A DNA stretch of 64,000 nucleotides from Apostichopus japonicus (Eukaryota > Echinodermata > Holothuroidea > Aspidochirotida > Stichopodidae), in the NCBI RefSeq assembly GCF_037975245.1, contig NC_092583.1:5489264-5553263 (forward strand). The letters are read 5' to 3'. The notes under the pieces were generated by a model that saw only the letters and a program-made list of their open reading frames with translations, was not told the DNA's origin and searched no databases. Below, piece by piece: positions 15,695 through 53,800 of the stretch; position 1 is the stretch's first letter, and the number at the start of each line of letters is the position of its first letter. The translations under genes were made by a program, and so were the position numbers.

Positions 15695-15848
15695 TCCTTA
15701 CCGGTTTCGAACCTCTGGACATACAATCAGCGTCCATAGCCTAGTGGTTAGGGTGTCCGCGTACAGAGCGGGAGGCCCGTGGTTCGAATCCCGGTGGAGG
15801 CTGAAAGTTTTTTCACTGTTCTTGATTTTCCAACTCATTACGATTTTC

Positions 15849-36633: not shown

Positions 36634-38210
36634 GTATAACATCAGAGCCGTATATAGAGAGAGTTTGGCCAACCATGTAACCGATTTGGATTGGTCGAGA
36701 GGGAAAACGCCCACACAGGGTGGTAAAATAGGTCCACTTGAAAACTTTTTAGCAGGCGACACGCATACTCACAGTGTATAGACTATCGTTTGTGTACACG
36801 AAAAAGTACGAAATTATGAAAGAAATGGTGCTGGGGATGCTGCAATCGGTCAGAACATGGATATTGTTGTTTGATTTTCCGACTGACCATAAAAGAAGGG
36901 GAATTTTTTGGAAGTAGAAAGAACAAGATGGATATCTAATGAAAAAAGTCTGTGTAGCCTAGGCCCATACTAGCCATATGCCCTAGTGTAATACGAGTAA
37001 TGTACAAGCAATGCGAGAATTTTACGTTCAGACTGGTTTCTGTAATTACATGCATGGCTATTCTCTCTCGATTTACGATCCACAAATTCGATTTCATTAT
37101 GCCAGCTCTTCTAATCATAGGCATGGCAGTTTCAGTCGCACATATAGTTATCCTAATTCCTAGTTATTGTATGCCTAGGCTATGCCTAGCCTAAAAAGTA
37201 TCACTTTTAGTTTAATGTAAAAGGGTGGGCTAGCCTCTAGGCATCACGTAAAGCCCTAATCCTTAGTTAAGCCCGAAGCATAAGTTAAGCCTGGGCTTAG
37301 TTAGACCAGGACCATTCTTGCTATTACTACAACTGTGATAGCACATTACATAATATGGCACAGTGTAAGGCCCAATTAAACTAGGTCTATGGAAAACAAA
37401 GTAGCCTAGGCCTAAACTAGTTAGGCTAGGTCTATACTCATTGGCAACTTGTGGGTTGTGTACACATACAGGCCTAATTATATAGACCCTTTTAGTATGC
37501 CATAAACAAGTGCCCAAATGGTTAAATGATCTTGGTTTGTGTTAATTGTCAGCATTGGCCTAGCCTTTTTAGGCTAACATGAATTCAGCCTAATTTTTTC
37601 TTCTTCAAAAGTATAGCCTAGGCCTTGGTTTAATTTGGATGCAGTCAACTATCATTTATCAAAGTTGCATCAGTACCTCCTTATTCCCTTAATTGACACC
37701 CACATTGATGATTGAAGTTAAAAAAAATCTTTTTAAATTATCTTTAGACAGTAAATTTTAACTCCCTGAATTTCAGGACTTTTTTTACAAATCAAAGGTG
37801 ACATGTGCTCTGAAGAAAAACTCCTAACATAAAAAGCCACAGTTAGCAGACTGTGATAAAGACAAACCTGGTGAGTGACTACTAGACTGAAATCCAGTTC
37901 CTGCAACCACAGCAATAAAGTCTTTGTTTTAATCAATGCACTTGTGTGTTTGAAACTTTCAAATGGACACTCAATGGCAGTTGGTTAAGATATAAGGTTT
38001 TACCTTCATCATGGAGAGTTGAAGGGAATCTGCCTCATCATCTGAATAATGGACTCAAGGATAGCAACAAATCATGATTGGATAATGATTTTGAGCAAGT
38101 AAATATCTGGCAATTTGAAAGTTTGTATTATTTTTTTACATATTATTTAAGCTGTTTAGCTCACACACAAGCAAATGATCAAGTGACAACAACCGATGCA
38201 GTATATTTAA

Positions 38211-38565
38211 AGGTATTGAAGACTTGCCCTAAACCGCATGCCGCGCTCTGAAAAAGTTTACTTTCCGTTGCTTGCAAGTGAAGTTTTTTTTGTGTCGCTA
38301 CAAAATGCAGACGGTAATGAAACCTGATACCTTGTTATCTTTTATCTAGACCTGAGATGTCCACGCTGCTATGTGCACTGTGTTGTGGGTATTGACCGTG
38401 ATGTTTGTATTGACTGTACACTAATGTCTATTTACAGATGGTAGCAAGCTGTGTGTGTATTTTCTGGGATCAATGGTGGTGTCTAACACTTCTGTTACAC
38501 CGCATTCGAAACTAGGTCAGATAACGGGCATGAGACGTTTCTTTGTGCGGGAGTCTCCACACCCT
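38211..38565. mobile_element. TTAA-flanked MITE inside copy A
   Basis: Starts AGGTATTGAAGACTTGC, ends GAGTCTCCACACCCT, with TTAA on both sides (38207-38210, 38566-38569). TTAA targets are used by piggyBac and Kolobok-type elements. A relative of its right end is found inverted at 56746-56835. Confidence 0.72.
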
Positions 38566-40059
38566 TTAAGGAGAAGAATTTATATCCCATTAATAGAGAA
38601 AGAATTACGTTTCAATTGGTAGCATGCAACTTTAAATTTTGCAAACATTAGATACAATCAAACAATAACAAGGTTCATTTACAAGGTAATCTACTGCCCT
38701 TTATTTCACATTAGTCTGTCACAACAGAAGGTCACAGCTTTCAATAATTATTCAAACAAATTCCCTTGATGGGTGCTTCGTTAGATTCCTGCAATTTTCA
38801 AGTTTATCAATGTAATAAGTTCTGAATGTGGCAATGTGGAGAAGCTTTGGGATAATCTGTGGATAAGACTGCCAGACTATCAACAAGATTCCACATCCAT
38901 GCAACTCCAACTGCTTCCTTCACCTCCTTGCAGATGTACCACATGTCCAAAAAAAAGTCAGCATTGGTTAATGTAATTAAAATCTGGCTTCCTCCTGAGC
39001 TGGCAAACACACATGAATTGTCAAGTACAGAGGTCAGTGTGAAACCACTGAAAGATCTTCTCAGCTTTCAAGAAAACAAAGACTTGAAGCCAAATTGACA
39101 GAGGCCACACTGTTACCATTCCACTCTCATAAGATGAAGGTATCACACACACTTCATTTTGCTTCTGCGATGCAGTGCCTGGTAGACTGTGAGGGTCACC
39201 CAATGGATGTTTTAACAACTGCCTGGTTTATAGAGCTCTGCAACAGATAATTCATCCTAATGTCTAGTCGTCATCCTGTCATGGCCTTGAGCAAGTTGAA
39301 CCCACTTCAACACAAAGCAGCTATTGAATTCTTGTCTAGGTACTGTCAAATCCACATCACCATCATTGTTGGTTCCAGCTACGCTGACCATGATAAAAGA
39401 GTACAATGAGGGTTTTTTAATTCACCCAACAGAGCTTGCATTCCAGTACCTTTGGGCAGCTGAAAAGATATTCAGAAATTGTTATATATGAGTGTGTTTG
39501 TATGCATGCATATGTGTGATTTTCTTGCTTTACAGAACAGCTCCATTTTGATAAGCTATGTAACGTGGAAACCTGCCAATCATATGTTTGAAATAAGACA
39601 TTCTTAAATGGAAAGCTTAACGACTTCTTGCCTTTTTATACATCACTGTTCAGGTAAGGCCAGTAAGGGCAGTATGAAGAATAAGTAACAATTAATAATT
39701 ATCATTATGGCCATTTGCTGTCTGCATAATAACAAACTGAATGATGTCATCAGCCCTGTGCTCAGTTGACAACACTGACAAGTAGGCACACGATGTCAGT
39801 GTGATCCATGAAACCTTATTAAGGACATGACCTTATAGTATATATGTTAATGGAAAATACATAAGCTACAACATACACCAGTCTTCAGTTGTTGCAGGTT
39901 TTTTTTTTTCTCGACAGACCCATTCAATCTGTTGCACCTACTATAGCCTAGTAATACATTCCTGAGAAATTAACATCACAATATCAGTCTTAGGTTTGCC
40001 CACAGACTCCCAACTATTGCTAACTCCTACACTCAAGTATAGTTTAGTTTAGTAGAAAA

Positions 40060-40370
40060 AAAGACCAGGAGAGACATTCAAGTCCCCATTAAGGACCCTA
40101 AGGCTATATGAGAGGAATAAAACCGAGGCCATCAAATGTCATACCCAATTACAATGCTTAATGTACTCATCCAAAGTATTCTTAAACCCATTCACACTAC
40201 TTGCAATTCAACCTTCTCAGGCAAACCATTCCATCCATTCACAACCCTTGTATAAGTTGTATTAGACTTTAGAGAAAAAGTTATGCCGAATATTAATCCT
40301 ACTATGTAACTTCTGGAGTTTAATACAATGACCTCTGGTACAACTACTTTTTGGCAAACCTGAATAGATC
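40060..40370 (-). mobile_element. LINE RT C-terminal scrap, antisense, in copy A
   Basis: On the - strand, about 40250-40164 reads RVVNGWNGLPEKVELQVV, then an interrupted LRILW, the conserved tail R-V-V-N-x-W-N-x-L-P found at the end of CR1/L2/jockey-type reverse transcriptases. It contains a stop codon and is a relic. Confidence 0.6.
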
Positions 40371-42436
40371 AGTGAAGCATAAATTGTCATTTTATGTGTA
40401 GGCCTACTTAATTTAATTGAAGGATCTATTAATGTAGGCCTGATGCTATAGTTGTGCGTCTGTAATCTAGCCTAGCCAGGACTGTGATGTGTGCTTTTCG
40501 TTTGTATGACTAAAGTAGGACTAGTAGTATGAGGCGTAAAATAAAACAAGTGTAATGACAGGTTTTCAGCTAGTTTTCTATGCATTTCAGGTGTGAAGAT
40601 AAGCGTAAATGTCATTAACTAACGCATACTCTAATTCATTACCTGATATCCATTTTGTTCCTCGTATGCCTGTCAAAATCTGACATTCTGAGTCGCTTTG
40701 TTTGTTCGCAACGAGCACAGTGTGCAAAGCTGCTATATATTGTGTGTGGTGTTTTTCGTGTTTCGCGCAACTGGTAACGACAACTGGACCTATTTTGATG
40801 CCCATGGTTTGCGTGTGACGTCACAAATCGCCAGTTGGCCAAACTCTCTCTATATACGGCTCTGTATAACATCAGAGCCGTATATAGAGAGAGTTTGGCC
40901 AACCATGTAACCGATTTGGATTGGTCGAGAGGGAAAACGCCCATACAGGGTGGTAAAATAGGTCCACTTGAAAACTTTATAGCAGACGACACGCATACTC
41001 ACAGTGTATAGACTATCGTTTGTGTACACGAAAAAAGTACGAAATTATGAAAGAAATGGTGCTGGGGATGCTGCAATCGGTCAGAACATGGATATTGTTG
41101 TTTGATTATCCGACTGACCATAAAAGAAGAGGAATTTTTTGTAAGTAGAAAGAACAAGATAGAGATCTAATGAAAAAAAGTCTGTGTAGCCTAGGCCCAG
41201 GCTAGCCATAGGCCTAGTGTAATACGAGTAATGTACAAGCAATGCGAGAATTTTACGTTCAGACTGGTTTCTGTAATTACATGCATGGGTATTCTCTCTC
41301 GTTTTACGATCCACAAATTCGATTTAATTATGCCAGCTCTCCTAATCATAGGCATGGCAGTTTCAGTCGCACATATAGTTATCCTAATTCCTAGTTATTG
41401 TATGCCTAGGCTATGCCTAGCCTAAAAAAGTATCACTTTTAGTTTAATGTAAAAGGGTGGGCTAGCCTCTAGGCATCACGTAAAGCCCTAATCCTTAGTT
41501 AAGCCCGAAGCATAAGTTAAGCCTGGGCTTAGTTAGACCTGGACCATTCCTTCTATCACTACAACTGTTATAGCACAGTACATAATATGGCACAGTATAA
41601 GGCCCAATTAAACTAGGTCTGAGGAAAACAAAGTAGCCTAGCCCTAACTAGTTAGGCTAGGTCTATACTCATTGGCAACTTGTGGGTTGTGTACACATAC
41701 AGGCCTAATTATATAGACCCTTTTTAGTATGCCATAAACAAGTGCCCAAATGGTTAAATGATCTTTGGTTTGTGTTAATTGTCAGCATTGGCCTAGCCTT
41801 TTTAGGCTAACATGAATTCAGCCTAATTTTTCAAAAGTATAGCCTAGGCCTTGTTTTAATTTGGATGCAGTCAACTATCATTTATCAAAGTTATATCAGT
41901 ACCTCCTTATTCCCTTAATTGACACCCACATTGATGATTGAAGTTAAAAAAAATCTTTTTAAATTATCTTTAGACAGTAAATTTTAACTCCCTGAATTTC
42001 AGGACTTTTTTTACAAATCAAAGGTGACATGTGCTCTGAAGAAAAACTCCTAACATAAAAAGCCACAGTTAGCAGACTGTGATAATGACAAACCTGGTGA
42101 GTGACTACTAGACTGAAATCCAGTTCCTGCAACCACAGCAATAAAGTCTTTGTTTTAATCAATGCACTTGTGTGTTTGAAACTTTCAAATGGACACTCAA
42201 TGGCAGTTGGTTAAGATATAAGGTTTTACCTTCATCATGGAGAGTTGAAGGGAATCTGCCTCATCATCTGAATAATGGACTCAAGGATAGCAACAAATCA
42301 TGATTGGATAATGAGTTTGAGCAAGTAAATATCTGGCAATTTGAAAGTTTGTATTATTTTTTTACATATTATTTAAGCTGTTTAGCTCACACACAAGCAA
42401 ATGATCAAGTGACAACAACCGATGCAGTATATTTAA

Positions 42437-42791
42437 AGGTATTGAAGACTTGCCCTAAACCGCATGCCGCGCTCTGAAAAAGTTTACTTTCCGTTGCTTG
42501 CAAGTGAAGTTTTTTTTGTGTCGCTACAAAATGCAGACAGTAATGAAACCTGATACCTTGTTATCTTTTATCTAGACCTGAGATGTCCACGCTGCTATGT
42601 GCACTGTGTTGTGGGTATTGACTGTGATGTTTGTATTGACTGTACACTAATGTCTATTTACAGATGGTAGCAAGCTGTATGTGTATTTTCTGGGATCAAT
42701 GGTGGTGTCTAACACTTCTGTTACACCGCATTCGAAACTAGGTCAGATAACCGGCATGAGACGTTTCTTTGTGCGGGGGTCTCCACACCCT
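42437..42791. mobile_element. TTAA-flanked MITE inside copy B
   Basis: Counterpart of 38211-38565 at the same relative position, with TTAA on both sides, so it inserted before the two 4.2-kb copies separated. Confidence 0.72.
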
Positions 42792-44299
42792 TTAAAGAGA
42801 AGTATTTATATCCCATTAATAGAGAAAGAATTATGTTTCAATTGGTAGCATGCAACTTAAAATTTTGCAAACATTAGATACAATCAAACAATAACAAGGT
42901 TCATTTACAAGGTAATCTACTGCCCTTTATTTCACATTAGTCTGTCACATCAGAAGGTCACAGCTTTCAATAATTATACAAACAAATTCCCTTGATGGGT
43001 GCTTCGTTAGATTCCTGCAATTTTCAAGTTTATCAATGTAATAAGTTCTGAATGTGGCAATGTGGAGAAGCTTTGGGATAATCTGTGGATAAGACTGCCA
43101 GACTATCAACAAGATTCCACATCCATGCAACTCCAACTGCTTCCTTCACCTCCTTGAAGATGTACCACATGTCCAAAAAAAAGTCAGCATTGGTTAATGT
43201 AATTAAAATCTGGCTTCCTCCTGAGCTGGCAAATACACATGAATTGTCAAGTACAGAGGTCAGTGTGAAACCACTGAAAGATCTTCTCAGCTTTCAAGAA
43301 AACAAAGACTTGAAGCCAAATTGACAGAGGCCACACTGATACCATTCCACTCTCTTAAGATGAAGGTATCACACACACTTCATTTTGCTTCTGCGATGCA
43401 GTGCCTGGTAGACTGTGAGGGTCACCCAATGGATGTTTTAACAACTGCCTGGTTTATAGAGCTCTGCAACAGATAATTCATCCTAATGTCTAGTCGTCAT
43501 CCTGTCATGGCCTTGAGCAAGTTGAACCCACTTCAACACAAAGCAGCTATTGAATTCTTGTCTAGGTACTGTCAAATCCACATCACCATCATTGCTGGTT
43601 CCAGCTACGCTAACCATGATAAAAGAGTACAATGAGGGTTTTTTAATTCACCCAACAGAGCTTGCATTCCAGTACCTTTGGGCAGCTGAAAAGATATTCA
43701 GAAATTGTTATATATGAGTGTGTTTGTATGCATGCATATGTGTGATTTTCTTGCTTTACAGAACAGCTCCATTTTGATAAGCTATGTAACGTGGAAACCT
43801 GCCAATCATATGTTTGAAATAGGACAGGCTGAAACGATTCTTAAATGAAAAGCTTAACGACTTCTTGCATTTTTATACATCACTGTTCAGGTAAGGCCAG
43901 TAAGGGCAGTATGAAGAATAAGTAACAATTAATAATTATCATTATGGCCATTTGCTGTCTGCATAATAACAAACTGAATGATGTCATCAGCCCTGTGCTC
44001 AGTTGACAACACTGACAAGTAGGCATACTATGTCAGTGTGATCCATGAAACCTTATTAAGGACATGACCGTATAGTATATATGTTAATGGAAAATACATA
44101 AGCTACAACATACACCAGTATTCAGTTGTTGCAGGGTTTTTTTTTCTCGACAGACCCATTCAATCTGTTGCACCTACTATAGCCTAGTACTACATTCCTG
44201 AGAAATTAACACCACAATATCAGTCTTAGGTTTGCCCACAGACTCCCAACTATTGCTAACTCCTACACTCAAGTATATAGTTTAGTTTAGTAGAAAAAA

Positions 44300-44600
44300 A
44301 GACCAGGAGAGACATTCAAGTCCCCATTAAGGACCCTAAGGCTATATGAGAGGAATAAAACCGAGGACATCAAATGTCATACCCAATTACAATGCTTAAT
44401 GTACTCATCCAAAGTATTCTTAAACCCATTCACACTACTTGCAATTCAACCTTCTCAGGCAAACCATTCCATCCATTCACAACCCTTGTATAAGTTGTAT
44501 TAGACTTTAGAGAAAAAGTTATGCCGAATATTAATCCTACTATGTAACTTCTGGAGTTTAATACAATGACCTCTGGTACAACTACTTTTTGGCAAACATG
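44300..44600 (-). mobile_element. LINE RT C-terminal scrap, antisense, in copy B
   Basis: Counterpart of 40060-40370, with the same R-V-V-N-x-W-N-x-L-P tail on the - strand. Confidence 0.6.
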
Positions 44601-45110
44601 AAAAGATCAGTGAAGAATAAATTGTCATTTTATGTGTAGGCCTACTTATTTAATTGAAAGATCTATTAATGTAGGCCTGATGCTATAGTTGTGCGTCTGT
44701 AATCTAGCCTAGCCAGGACTGTGATGTATGCTTTTCGTTTGTATGACTAAAGTAGGACTAATAGTATGAGGCATAAAATAAAACAAGTGTAATGACAGGT
44801 TTTCAGCTAGTTTTCTATGCATTTCAGGTGTGAAGATAAACGTAAATGTCATTAACTAACGCATACTCTAATTCATTACCTGATATCCATTTTGTTCCTC
44901 GTATGCCTGTCAAAATCTGACATTCTGAGTCGCTTCGTTTGTTCGCAACGAGCACAGTGTGCAAAGCTGCTATATATTGTGTGTGGTGTTTTTCGTGTTT
45001 CGCGCAACTGGTAACGACAACTGGACCTATTTTGATGCCCATGGTTTGCGTGTGACGTCACAAATCGCCAGTTGGCCAAACTCTCTCTATATACGGCTCT
45101 GTATAACATT

Positions 45111-45946
45111 ATAGAATAGCGCCCTCCTAGTAGGTTGCAGTTGAGGGTGTGTATTCAGATTACTGGTAATTTGTACAGTTTTTTGGGGGTTGACAAAGGG
45201 TGCTTGCTGGTGACCAGGGGCGTGTCGACGCCGTGGCAGTCAAACTACAAAAATGGTCAGGTGAAGGTTTAGTTTTATTTGATCATCATTTTAGTATCTT
45301 TCACATTGCATGAAACTATGGTCATTGTGTATCCCGACTGCATGCACTGCAATCACTGCACTGTCCAATACAGGCTATGCTGGATATTGGGGATTGAACC
45401 TACCAGTCTAGCTATACGTCTTTTTATGTAATGTTCTGCACTGGATTAAGCCATCAAAAGCAACATTTCACCCACCATGAAGCCAAATGTGCTCCCACCA
45501 TTCTTGGTGATGACTTTCCCCATGATACCAAGAAGGGAGGAAGGAGCTCGTCAAAACCACTGCAGACTTCAGTGCCATGTCATATCCAGCATGAACTATA
45601 TTTCACTTTCCTAATCCCTACATGATCCACCCCATTTTAGAAACAGATTGGATGGGGCACCACTGAACTTTGTCAAGCATTTGGGACAAGGGAACATGGG
45701 GTGATTTAAGCACTCAGGTATCCTTCAAATGTATCATTAGACTAAGGTGTATGGGGCTTGAATTTGACATAACTAAATGAGCATATGATGAAACAATACT
45801 GGTATATGATTATATATTCCTACAAGGATATAATTGGTATTACCAGAGACTGACAGAAAGTTCCATTAAGAAATTACCTTGCTTTAAAGCTGGCGGGTAA
45901 GCGCAATACGATGTCAACCTTCAAAATGATCAAGGATTAAAACATT
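45111..45946. other. Intergenic, no feature seen
   Basis: Right flank of the tandem element. No gene or repeat supported. Confidence 0.35.
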
Positions 45947-50654: not shown

Positions 50655-51040
50655 CCGAGCACAACATGAGTGACTCAAAGTGAAAAAGAGCACACCGTGA
50701 GCAAAAGAGAGTCGTTTAGATGGGCAATTGAGCACGTGCTCATATTAGAATTAGCAAAAAAAAAACGCATGATGTGGTTGATGTGATGAGCACGCGAGCA
50801 CAAAATGAGTGATTCAAAGGGCAAAAGAGCAAAGAGCACACCATGAGCAGAAGAAAGTCATTTAGATGAGTAATTGAGCATGTGCTTTATTAGAGTTAGC
50901 AAAAAAACAAACACGCATGATGTGGTTCATGGGATGAGCACGCGAGCACAAAATGAGAGACTCAAAGAGCAAAAGAGCACACGATGAGCAGAAGAAAGTC
51001 GTTTAGATGAGCAATCGAGCATGTGCTCATATTGATATAT
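50655..51040. repeat. Tandem repeat, about 143-bp period, 2.5 copies
   Basis: Units start GAGCACACC at 50688, 50834 and 50975. Shared blocks include GTCGTTTAGATGGGCAATTG, AACGCATGATGTGGTT and GAGCACGCGAGCACAAAATG. Rich in the word GAGCA(C/A). Confidence 0.8.
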
Positions 51041-52424: not shown

Positions 52425-53800
52425 TAGGGGTCAAAATGTGAAAACCTTGTAAACACGATATCTGAAGAAGGGAAGCTCGGACGAATCTCATATTTATTAG
52501 GTAGTTGTGACACGCTTAGTACAAGAAGCATTGTTTCTTCTTGAGGTCAAAGGTCATTTAGATTCACAAGACGACAAATTGTGGAAACCGTGTGTTATAA
52601 CCCGAGCTACCGTATCAACTACCGAACAGACTATCAGATAACATGTGCGTTACGCGTCATACGAATATACGGAAGCGTAGAAGGGACATGGTGATGAAAG
52701 AGAAACAAACTCGTCAAAATGACAAAATTCAGAAAAATGACGTTTTGCCGAGTTTAACAACTCTTCAAAACGACAAAATTATTAAATTTGCCGAGATACA
52801 ACAAGTCGTCAAAATGGCAAAATTTTGCCGAGATTCAAATCGTCAAAACGACAACTTTCAGATTTTTGTCATTTTGATGAGTTATTGTATCTCGGCAAAA
52901 CGTCAATTTTCAATATTTTGTCATTTTGACGACTTGTTGTATCTCGGCAAAACGTCAATTTTCAGAATTTTGTCATTTTGACGACTTGTTGTATGTCGGC
53001 AAAACGTCAATTTTCAGAATTTTGTCATTTTGACGACTTGTGGTATCTCGGCAAAACGTTAAAATTCAGATTTTTGTCATTTTGACGACTTGTTGTATCT
53101 CGGCAAAACATTAAAATTCAGATTTTTGTCATTTTGAAGACTTGTATCTCGGCAAAACGTCAATTTTTGAAATTTTGTCATCATGACGACTTGTTGTATC
53201 TCGACAAATTTAACAATTTTGTCGTTTTGACGAGTTGTTAAACTCGGCAAAACGTTATTTTTCTGAATTTTGTCATTTTGACGAGTTTGTTTCTTTTTCA
53301 TCACCATGTCCCTTCTACGCTTCCGTACGAATAGGAGGCTATTGGCAGTTAGAAATAAGCTTATGGGCATTCGCAGAATCTAAAACTCAATCGGATAACT
53401 CGAACATATCTGCATAGGTCTCTGTTTGTCACTCGGAGGCCTTACTTTGCGTGCAAAAAGGGTGTACTTTCTGTACGTACGGCGGTACTATTGGACGTTT
53501 TCCGTCGTATTTCAGGTTGGATGTAGTTTCGTTGGGGAAATGACCAGGCGCCGTTTTTGAAACTGAACAGTTCGTCTAGTTAGATTTTTGACTACATGAC
53601 CAATCTCAATGCGAATTAATTGTGTAAAACGATCTTAGTTTGACAGTGAGTTCACAAGCTTCTTCTGGATTGGCTGTTGATCTCAAGTTGTGTAGTCTCT
53701 TCCACCAGTTTCAGCATTGCTGGCCTTAAAAGTAACGTTCGACTTTCGTCACGTTAATGATTATGGGACAACACGAACCAACCTGGCTAGGCCTATGGAA
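52425..53800. repeat. Satellite-bearing dispersed repeat, copy 3 (interrupted)
   Basis: Same order as copy 2: satellite unit with AGGTCAAAGGTCA at 52544-52556, CGTTACGCGTCATACGAATA, then the 658-bp foldback, then the rest of the body from 53326 to about 53800. Confidence 0.75.
52668..53325. mobile_element. Foldback element with about 130-bp TIRs and internal minisatellite
   Basis: Ends TACGGAAGCGTAGAAGGG and CCCTTCTACGCTTCCG; inverted arms match for about 130 bp with few differences. Flanked by TACGAATA (52660-52667, 53326-53333). The middle (about 52893-53205) is six head-to-tail units of 52 bp, CGGCAAAACGTCAATTTTCA..., each holding the partly palindromic TTTTGTCATTTTGACGA. The paralogous copy at 51950 has the empty site. 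No ORF of significance. Confidence 0.88.

Follow-up and report, generated by a model that had tools for sequence, protein, structure and literature searches.

Among the described systems closest to the elements studied here, the Drosophila P element has 31-bp terminal inverted repeats (TIRs), an 8-bp target site duplication (TSD) and an RNaseH transposase with a GTP-binding insertion, which cuts 17 bp inside the TIR, and the available text terms its transposition “not site-specific”, with a consensus target (PMC7776569). Tandem dimers in Drosophila were attributed by McGurk and Barbash (2018), as described in papers citing that work, to insertion-site preference combined with a reusable TSD (PMC12628747, PMC12368964). 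Here, we analyzed two adjoining transposons, elements A and B, in a 64,000-nucleotide stretch of the Apostichopus japonicus genome (contig NC_092583.1, positions 5,489,264 to 5,553,263 of the forward strand; hereafter, the window), together with related loci throughout the assembly (671.6 Mb, 35 contigs). A and B probably represent one non-autonomous DNA transposon of the P superfamily that was inserted twice in succession into one 8-bp target, and the best reading of the locus, likewise probable, is an insertion that is positioned by a one-sided motif and regenerates its own site.

The two elements share one orientation and are 97.77% identical across 4258 aligned columns, with 67 substitutions and 12 indels between them, in agreement with the 97-98% given in an earlier note made from the sequence of this stretch. 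The octamer TATAACAT is present three times in identical form, to the left of A, between A and B, and to the right of B, so that the order TSD-A-TSD-B-TSD in that note was seen again, whereas its 10-bp duplication with a differing last base proved to be 8 bp, two outside letters having been included. Perfect 31-bp TIRs terminate both elements. The junction between A and B is indeed a palindrome in which two TIRs face each other (31+8+31), but its centre comprises 8 bp rather than 10.

Further genomic copies and their flanks, which the earlier note had suggested looking for, were found. Exact matches to the 31-bp TIR numbered 337 genome-wide, and a whole-genome search for two 10-bp TIR tips facing outwards across a gap of 0-30 bp identified 47 junctions, comprising 44 with a single clean 8-bp spacer, one with 9 bp and two spanning extra TIR tips. 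The reversed control pattern returned 0 places, and a stricter version with 14-bp tips returned 25. Trimers were indicated on contigs C14 and C11, where two junctions with a common octamer lie approximately 4.2 kb and 3.5 kb apart, respectively. In all seven dimers for which both outer ends were read, the outer octamers were the same as the inner one. Partners could be assigned in 22 of 31 examined junctions (L160, which has a short remnant between its elements, was left unassigned): 8 joined two right ends (RE-RE), 5 joined two left ends (LE-LE) and 9 were head-to-tail, which is compatible with the approximately 5.5 : 5.5 : 11 (1:1:2) expected for random orientation. An assembly artefact appears very unlikely on sequence grounds, because 67 substitutions separate A from B and comparable junctions are present at many loci around different octamers; the identity of A and B that the earlier note associated with misassembly was not what we found.

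That note had left two origins open, precise re-insertion into the existing target duplication and unequal exchange. Duplication of one element by unequal exchange or slippage would suit the head-to-tail pair with its common octamer in the window. It is excluded as a general cause, because exchange between direct copies makes no inverted pairs, and 13 of the 22 assigned junctions are inverted; in addition, families are mixed within stacks, a second TIR family being found at the same octamers, and A and B differ at 67 bases even though a copy on contig C7 matches the first 2058 bp of A at 99.7% identity. We consider this explanation extremely improbable. Some loci share octamers over larger distances. 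L155 and L024, 180 kb apart, have one octamer and identical end order and may represent one copied event. The same or the reverse-complement octamer is present at C16:17529466 and C16:17708710 (180 kb apart, same end order, perhaps a copied segment) and at C16:689557 and C16:769563 (80 kb apart, with different end pairs, RE-RE and LE-RE). The octamer ATAGTGTC is found at distant loci, namely a scar stack (L012, C3), a dimer (L016, C7) and a single copy (L039, C3).

Precise re-insertion is supported, and its likely reason is a motif located 8 bp away on one side of the target. This asymmetric motif, AGCGCC(A/C)(C/T)C, was first noticed in the flanks of the first copies and was scored out of 9. 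At a threshold of at least 6/9, 47 of 59 sites had it at a distance of exactly 8 bp from the duplication: 17 of 18 single copies, each of the 7 dimers for which both outer flanks were read, 19 of 24 scars and 4 of 10 one-sided reads. This count excludes scars with fewer than 7/8 matching TSD letters, the stack windows L061, L070, L071 and L076, two of the three copies with the TSD TTACATAC, and L114 and L123, which are abutted by another remnant. Over 108 flanks, matches of at least 7/9 occurred 44 times at spacing 8; each of the remaining spacings in the 0-29 range had 0-3. Of 29 sites that were fetched later and not used to notice the motif, 21 had it in this position at 7/9 or better; 2000 mononucleotide shuffles gave 0.22 such sites on average and never more than 3. 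The window has a single strong 10-mer, 8 bp past the dimer. A copy of a site internal to the element was rejected as the source of the motif, since nothing above 7/9 was found inside A. At L086, a locus chosen solely for its motif, a TIR remnant and an octamer stand in the same 8-bp register.

Genome-wide, TAGCGCCMYC occurs 9,561 times, compared with 371 for the reversed pattern (approximately 25-fold over-representation), and of 20 motif sites that were read (e.g. among L084-L103), one repeat accounted for 8, the other 12 lying elsewhere. The 10-mer resembles half of the CTCF motif; a CTCF site was rejected as an explanation, as the full CTCF-type extension has only 6 occurrences. As a separate observation, the over-representation of TAGCGCCMYC inside and outside that repeat suggests that it may double as some sort of site for the host. 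The abundance of the motif and its presence outside the repeat would be consistent with tethering, in which a DNA-binding protein of the host occupies the motif and brings in the transposase. The scarcity of the full extension argues against it, as does an offset that is exact to the base, given that the tethered elements Tf1 and TRE5-A insert near, not at, specific positions according to the available part of PMC3706591. Tethering is compatible with site-regenerating, motif-positioned insertion, and we regard it as possible but doubtful. The exact offset leads us to prefer, tentatively, an integration complex that reads the motif directly to one tethered by a host factor.

Evidence that the target is used repeatedly also came from loci where several insertions share one octamer. 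A second TIR, beginning with TAGAGTTCC, adjoins dimer-family tips at 14 places, with exactly 8 bp between them in 12 (two of these 12 belonging to one locus). At L133, L135 and L137, successive scars are separated by one octamer, and a motif scoring 9/9 follows 8 bp after the last. Across 20 stack loci, a motif of at least 7/9 was found at spacing 8 in 10, with 0-1 loci for each of the other spacings in the 0-20 range. These stacks bear on end-directed self-insertion, in which transposase bound to the TIR of a resident copy would draw the newcomer into the adjacent octamer and the motif would serve for the first hit only. Such a process also allows for the motif retained in all seven dimers, and both TIRs contain AGAG and TATA stretches, making cross-recognition possible. 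Use of the same octamers and register by a second family with a different TIR, with 8 bp at 12 of 14 places, argues against it, and we consider it rather unlikely. Other arrangements were observed at individual loci: at L123 (C7:2283024-2283114), a related TIR, CAGAGCCTTATATAGAGAGAGTTGCGACAA, adjoins a dimer-family TIR across GACACTAT as a two-family pair; the L133 stack contains a possible third palindromic scar type, tgtagaccctatagggtctct; and a 306-aa open frame without a Pfam match lies at L026 1574-2494, close to a full element stacked with two scars.

Excision scars were sought as two TIR tips facing inwards with at most 30 bp between them, yielding 335 candidates genome-wide, 42 of which were read in contig order from C1 to C4 (C3:5296091, which lies within L012, was skipped). 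At least 7/8 TSD letters matched in 27 of these 42 places. The 25 distinct TSD-verified scars were 18-33 bp long and kept no more than 18 bp per TIR in every case, with exactly 18 bp kept in 11 and a 1-bp overlap leaving 17 and 18 ambiguous in 10. One 22-mer with a 6-bp overlap accounts for four scars, consistent with joining at the self-complementary TATATA. The 18-bp maximum fits P-type excision followed by end joining, because the cut made by the P transposase lies 17 bp within the TIR. With regard to the unusual transposition activity that the earlier note considered for tandem dimers, L012, L021 and L025, where a pair is represented by two scars, show no more than that both units can be lost.

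Assignment of the elements to the P superfamily relies on a decayed coding region. A remnant in A (A 2180-2734) shows 48% identity (E 7e-45) to a P-type frame of 779 aa at another genomic locus, and a second stretch (A 2685-2834) matches the same frame at E 2e-11. In this frame, the families of the P-type RNaseH (PF21787, E 1.9e-30) and the GTP-binding insertion (PF21788, E 3.6e-14) are recognised; the P-type assignment rests on the frame because the remnant by itself matches only PF21788 at E 0.017, below the cut-off. An N-terminal THAP domain was not called in the 779-aa frame, and the corresponding region was not seen in the A remnant. Identical 8-bp octamers flank all 16 single copies that were read completely. 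The family thus combines an 8-bp TSD and TIRs of about 31 bp with a P-type transposase, the last as a decayed fragment only, and cleavage about 17 nt within the TIR is indicated by the scars only. Across the remnant stretch, 2 TGA and 4 TAA stops are common to at least 20 genome rows, the window copy included, so the element seems to have spread after the death of its gene, moved in trans. Action of the transposase in trans is probable, because no examined copy of the dimer’s family has an open transposase frame; the longest stop-to-stop frame across the 16 single-copy loci L028-L043 is 131 aa, and a Pfam scan of 26 of 41 shorter frames gave just two weak, irrelevant matches. The hAT superfamily was rejected, since the remnant matches the P-type frame and no hAT family appeared in the scan of the 26 frames. 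A Dada-type element, which would have a 6-7-bp TSD in small RNA genes, was also rejected, as the TSD here is 8 bp and the dimer lies far from the only RNA-family match of the window, a tRNA at 15730-15802.

We propose that the integration complex, or a partner held rigidly by it, would read the motif and join the element ends at fixed offsets, the register, seen at most of the insertions read, being an 8-bp spacer between the 8-bp target and AGCGCC(A/C)(C/T)C on one side. Insertion would duplicate the octamer and leave the spacer and motif intact on one side; because the motif lies wholly on that side, the site would be rebuilt and could be hit again. Such regeneration accounts jointly for octamers being identical, for partners lying in either orientation, and for the trimers and the stacks of more than one family. 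Excision by a P-type cut some 17-18 nt within the TIR, followed by end joining, would leave scars between octamers, and old sites would become stacks. We also lean, with less confidence, towards the broader view that true site recognition arose in a P-superfamily lineage comprising two or more TIR families, the complex of this lineage reading the motif in a rigid 8+8-bp register, so that a self-rebuilt target became a stackable docking site logging insertions and excisions of several families.

A rate estimate gave a measure of how far motif targeting suffices. Taking approximately 503 events (337/2 TIR pairs plus 335 candidate scars), 0.0002 double hits would be predicted if events fell anywhere in the genome, and 13 if they fell evenly over the 9,561 strong motif sites, or 8 when only the TSD-verified share of scars is counted; 47 were observed. 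On this rough rate, motif targeting explains most of the excess of double hits on a log scale.

Several observations weigh against site-regenerating, motif-positioned insertion. Double hits remain 3.5- to 6-fold above the uniform-motif estimate, a residual that may reflect unequal sites, copied loci or attraction by resident ends, and to that extent favours end-directed self-insertion. Entry on the motif side predicts fewer private changes in the motif-side unit. This was compared in 7 dimers with a known motif side, the window among them; row L001 (which is the window again), L006 (at the locus of L037) and ends of less than 1450 bases were left out. In all, 4 of 7 (L009, L010, L013 and L015) showed fewer private changes on that side, and the expectation failed in 3 of 7, namely the window (3.2 per kb in A, 6.2 in B), L014 and, strongly, L024. 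The motif-side unit is thus not shown to be younger, as end-directed insertion would allow. Because cut-and-paste copies carry old mutations, private changes are no clean clock and give no clear support for motif-side arrival. The motif was absent at 6/9 from 12 of the 59 sites (six of them one-sided reads), and matches of at least 6/9 also occurred at other spacings, at 15 sites for spacing 6, the next-best, and 10 for spacing 11. Half of the 20 stack loci failed to reach 7/9 at spacing 8 (in two of these, the spacer is 7 or 9), and 15 of the 42 scar-like places had no matching octamers. An autonomous copy with these TIRs was not found among six P-type loci of 6 kb each, a search that was not exhaustive.

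The sites are also not all independent: L033 and L036 have common flanks, and at least 10 of the 43 motif-bearing sites lie in one repeat family, of which uninserted copies were also read. This raises the question of whether the elements merely sit in a repeat, with no recognition of the motif. Of 21 later-fetched sites outside the known repeat, 13 still had the motif at 8 bp, and the 33 non-repeat sites were little conserved past the motif. Both observations make the repeat a highly improbable explanation.

The coordinates of the dimer and its target are listed below. Elsewhere in the window, a tRNA gene (15729-15803; Cys with anticodon aca according to ARAGORN, Rfam RF00005) lies between AT-dinucleotide arrays, a 52-bp tandem repeat with 8.8 copies spans 52840-53284, and 145-149-bp arrays are located at 50656, 51462 and 58940.

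Features of the A/B dimer and its target site, in window coordinates
Feature	Position	Strand	Basis or remark
Left target duplication copy, TATAACAT	36635..36642	no strand	One of three identical copies
Element A, 4222 bp, likely non-autonomous P-superfamily, motif-distal	36643..40864	+	A/B alignment, transposase remnant
A left TIR, 31 bp	36643..36673	+	Perfect repeat
A P-type transposase remnant, internal stops	38822..39476	+	Matches of A 2180-2734 and A 2685-2834
A right TIR, 31 bp	40834..40864	-	Perfect repeat
Middle TATAACAT, common to A and B	40865..40872	no strand	One of three identical copies
Element B, 4229 bp, motif-proximal	40873..45101	+	A/B alignment
B left TIR, 31 bp	40873..40903	+	Perfect repeat
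B remnant of the same P-type transposase as in A	43048..43702	+	Matches of B 2176-2730 and 2681-2830
B right TIR, 31 bp	45071..45101	-	Perfect repeat
Right target duplication copy, TATAACAT	45102..45109	no strand	One of three identical copies
Spacer from target duplication to motif, 8 bp	45110..45117	+	Adjoins the right target duplication copy
Target motif, AGCGCCCTC	45118..45126	+	With the preceding T, sole [TA]AGCGCCMYC in the 64-kb window

In the literature on double P insertion, fixed-distance target motifs, target specificity of the P superfamily and tandem dimers, represented mostly by titles and the beginnings of abstracts and by few subscription papers, this arrangement was not found, and among the listed matches of literature containing two or more of four spellings of the motif, none was on the subject by title. 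What appears to be new is the one-sided motif in a fixed register, together with stacks of several families. P elements are textbook DNA transposons. If the proposal is correct, a P-type lineage inserting base-exactly relative to a short motif would provide a natural example of this transposase fold carrying out positioned insertion. The same behaviour would account for the origin of tandem arrays with a common target duplication, a proposed seed of satellite DNA in the available part of PMC12628747, and the stacked scars would allow past insertions and excisions to be traced site by site.

Compared with known systems, Dada transposons are likewise sequence-specific eukaryotic DNA transposons, but the available text gives them a TSD of 6-7 bp and a target within small nuclear RNA or tRNA genes (PMC3706591). 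Zebrafish Pdre2 / THAP9 shares the P-type transposase, the 8-bp TSD and internally deleted derivatives, whereas its TIRs are 13 bp, and no target motif is described in the accessible portion of that paper (PMC10983969). The P elements of Anopheles and their miniature inverted-repeat derivatives (P-MITEs) resemble the dimer family in having 27-31-bp TIRs, an 8-bp TSD and non-autonomous relatives, and differ in that neither octamer-sharing stacks nor a target motif is described in the text available (PMC1562414). The dimer family resembles the Drosophila P element, as far as the latter is covered by the available text, in its 31-bp TIRs, 8-bp TSD and P-type transposase remnant; unlike the P element, it is associated with a one-sided motif at an exact 8-bp offset, and its copies and scars stack on one octamer. 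Like the double insertions of McGurk and Barbash, as outlined in the citing papers, the copies here are in tandem with one common TSD, 44 of 47 junctions being a clean octamer; unlike those dimers, they are accompanied by a positioning motif, by frequent inverted pairs, and by scars and a second family on the same octamer.

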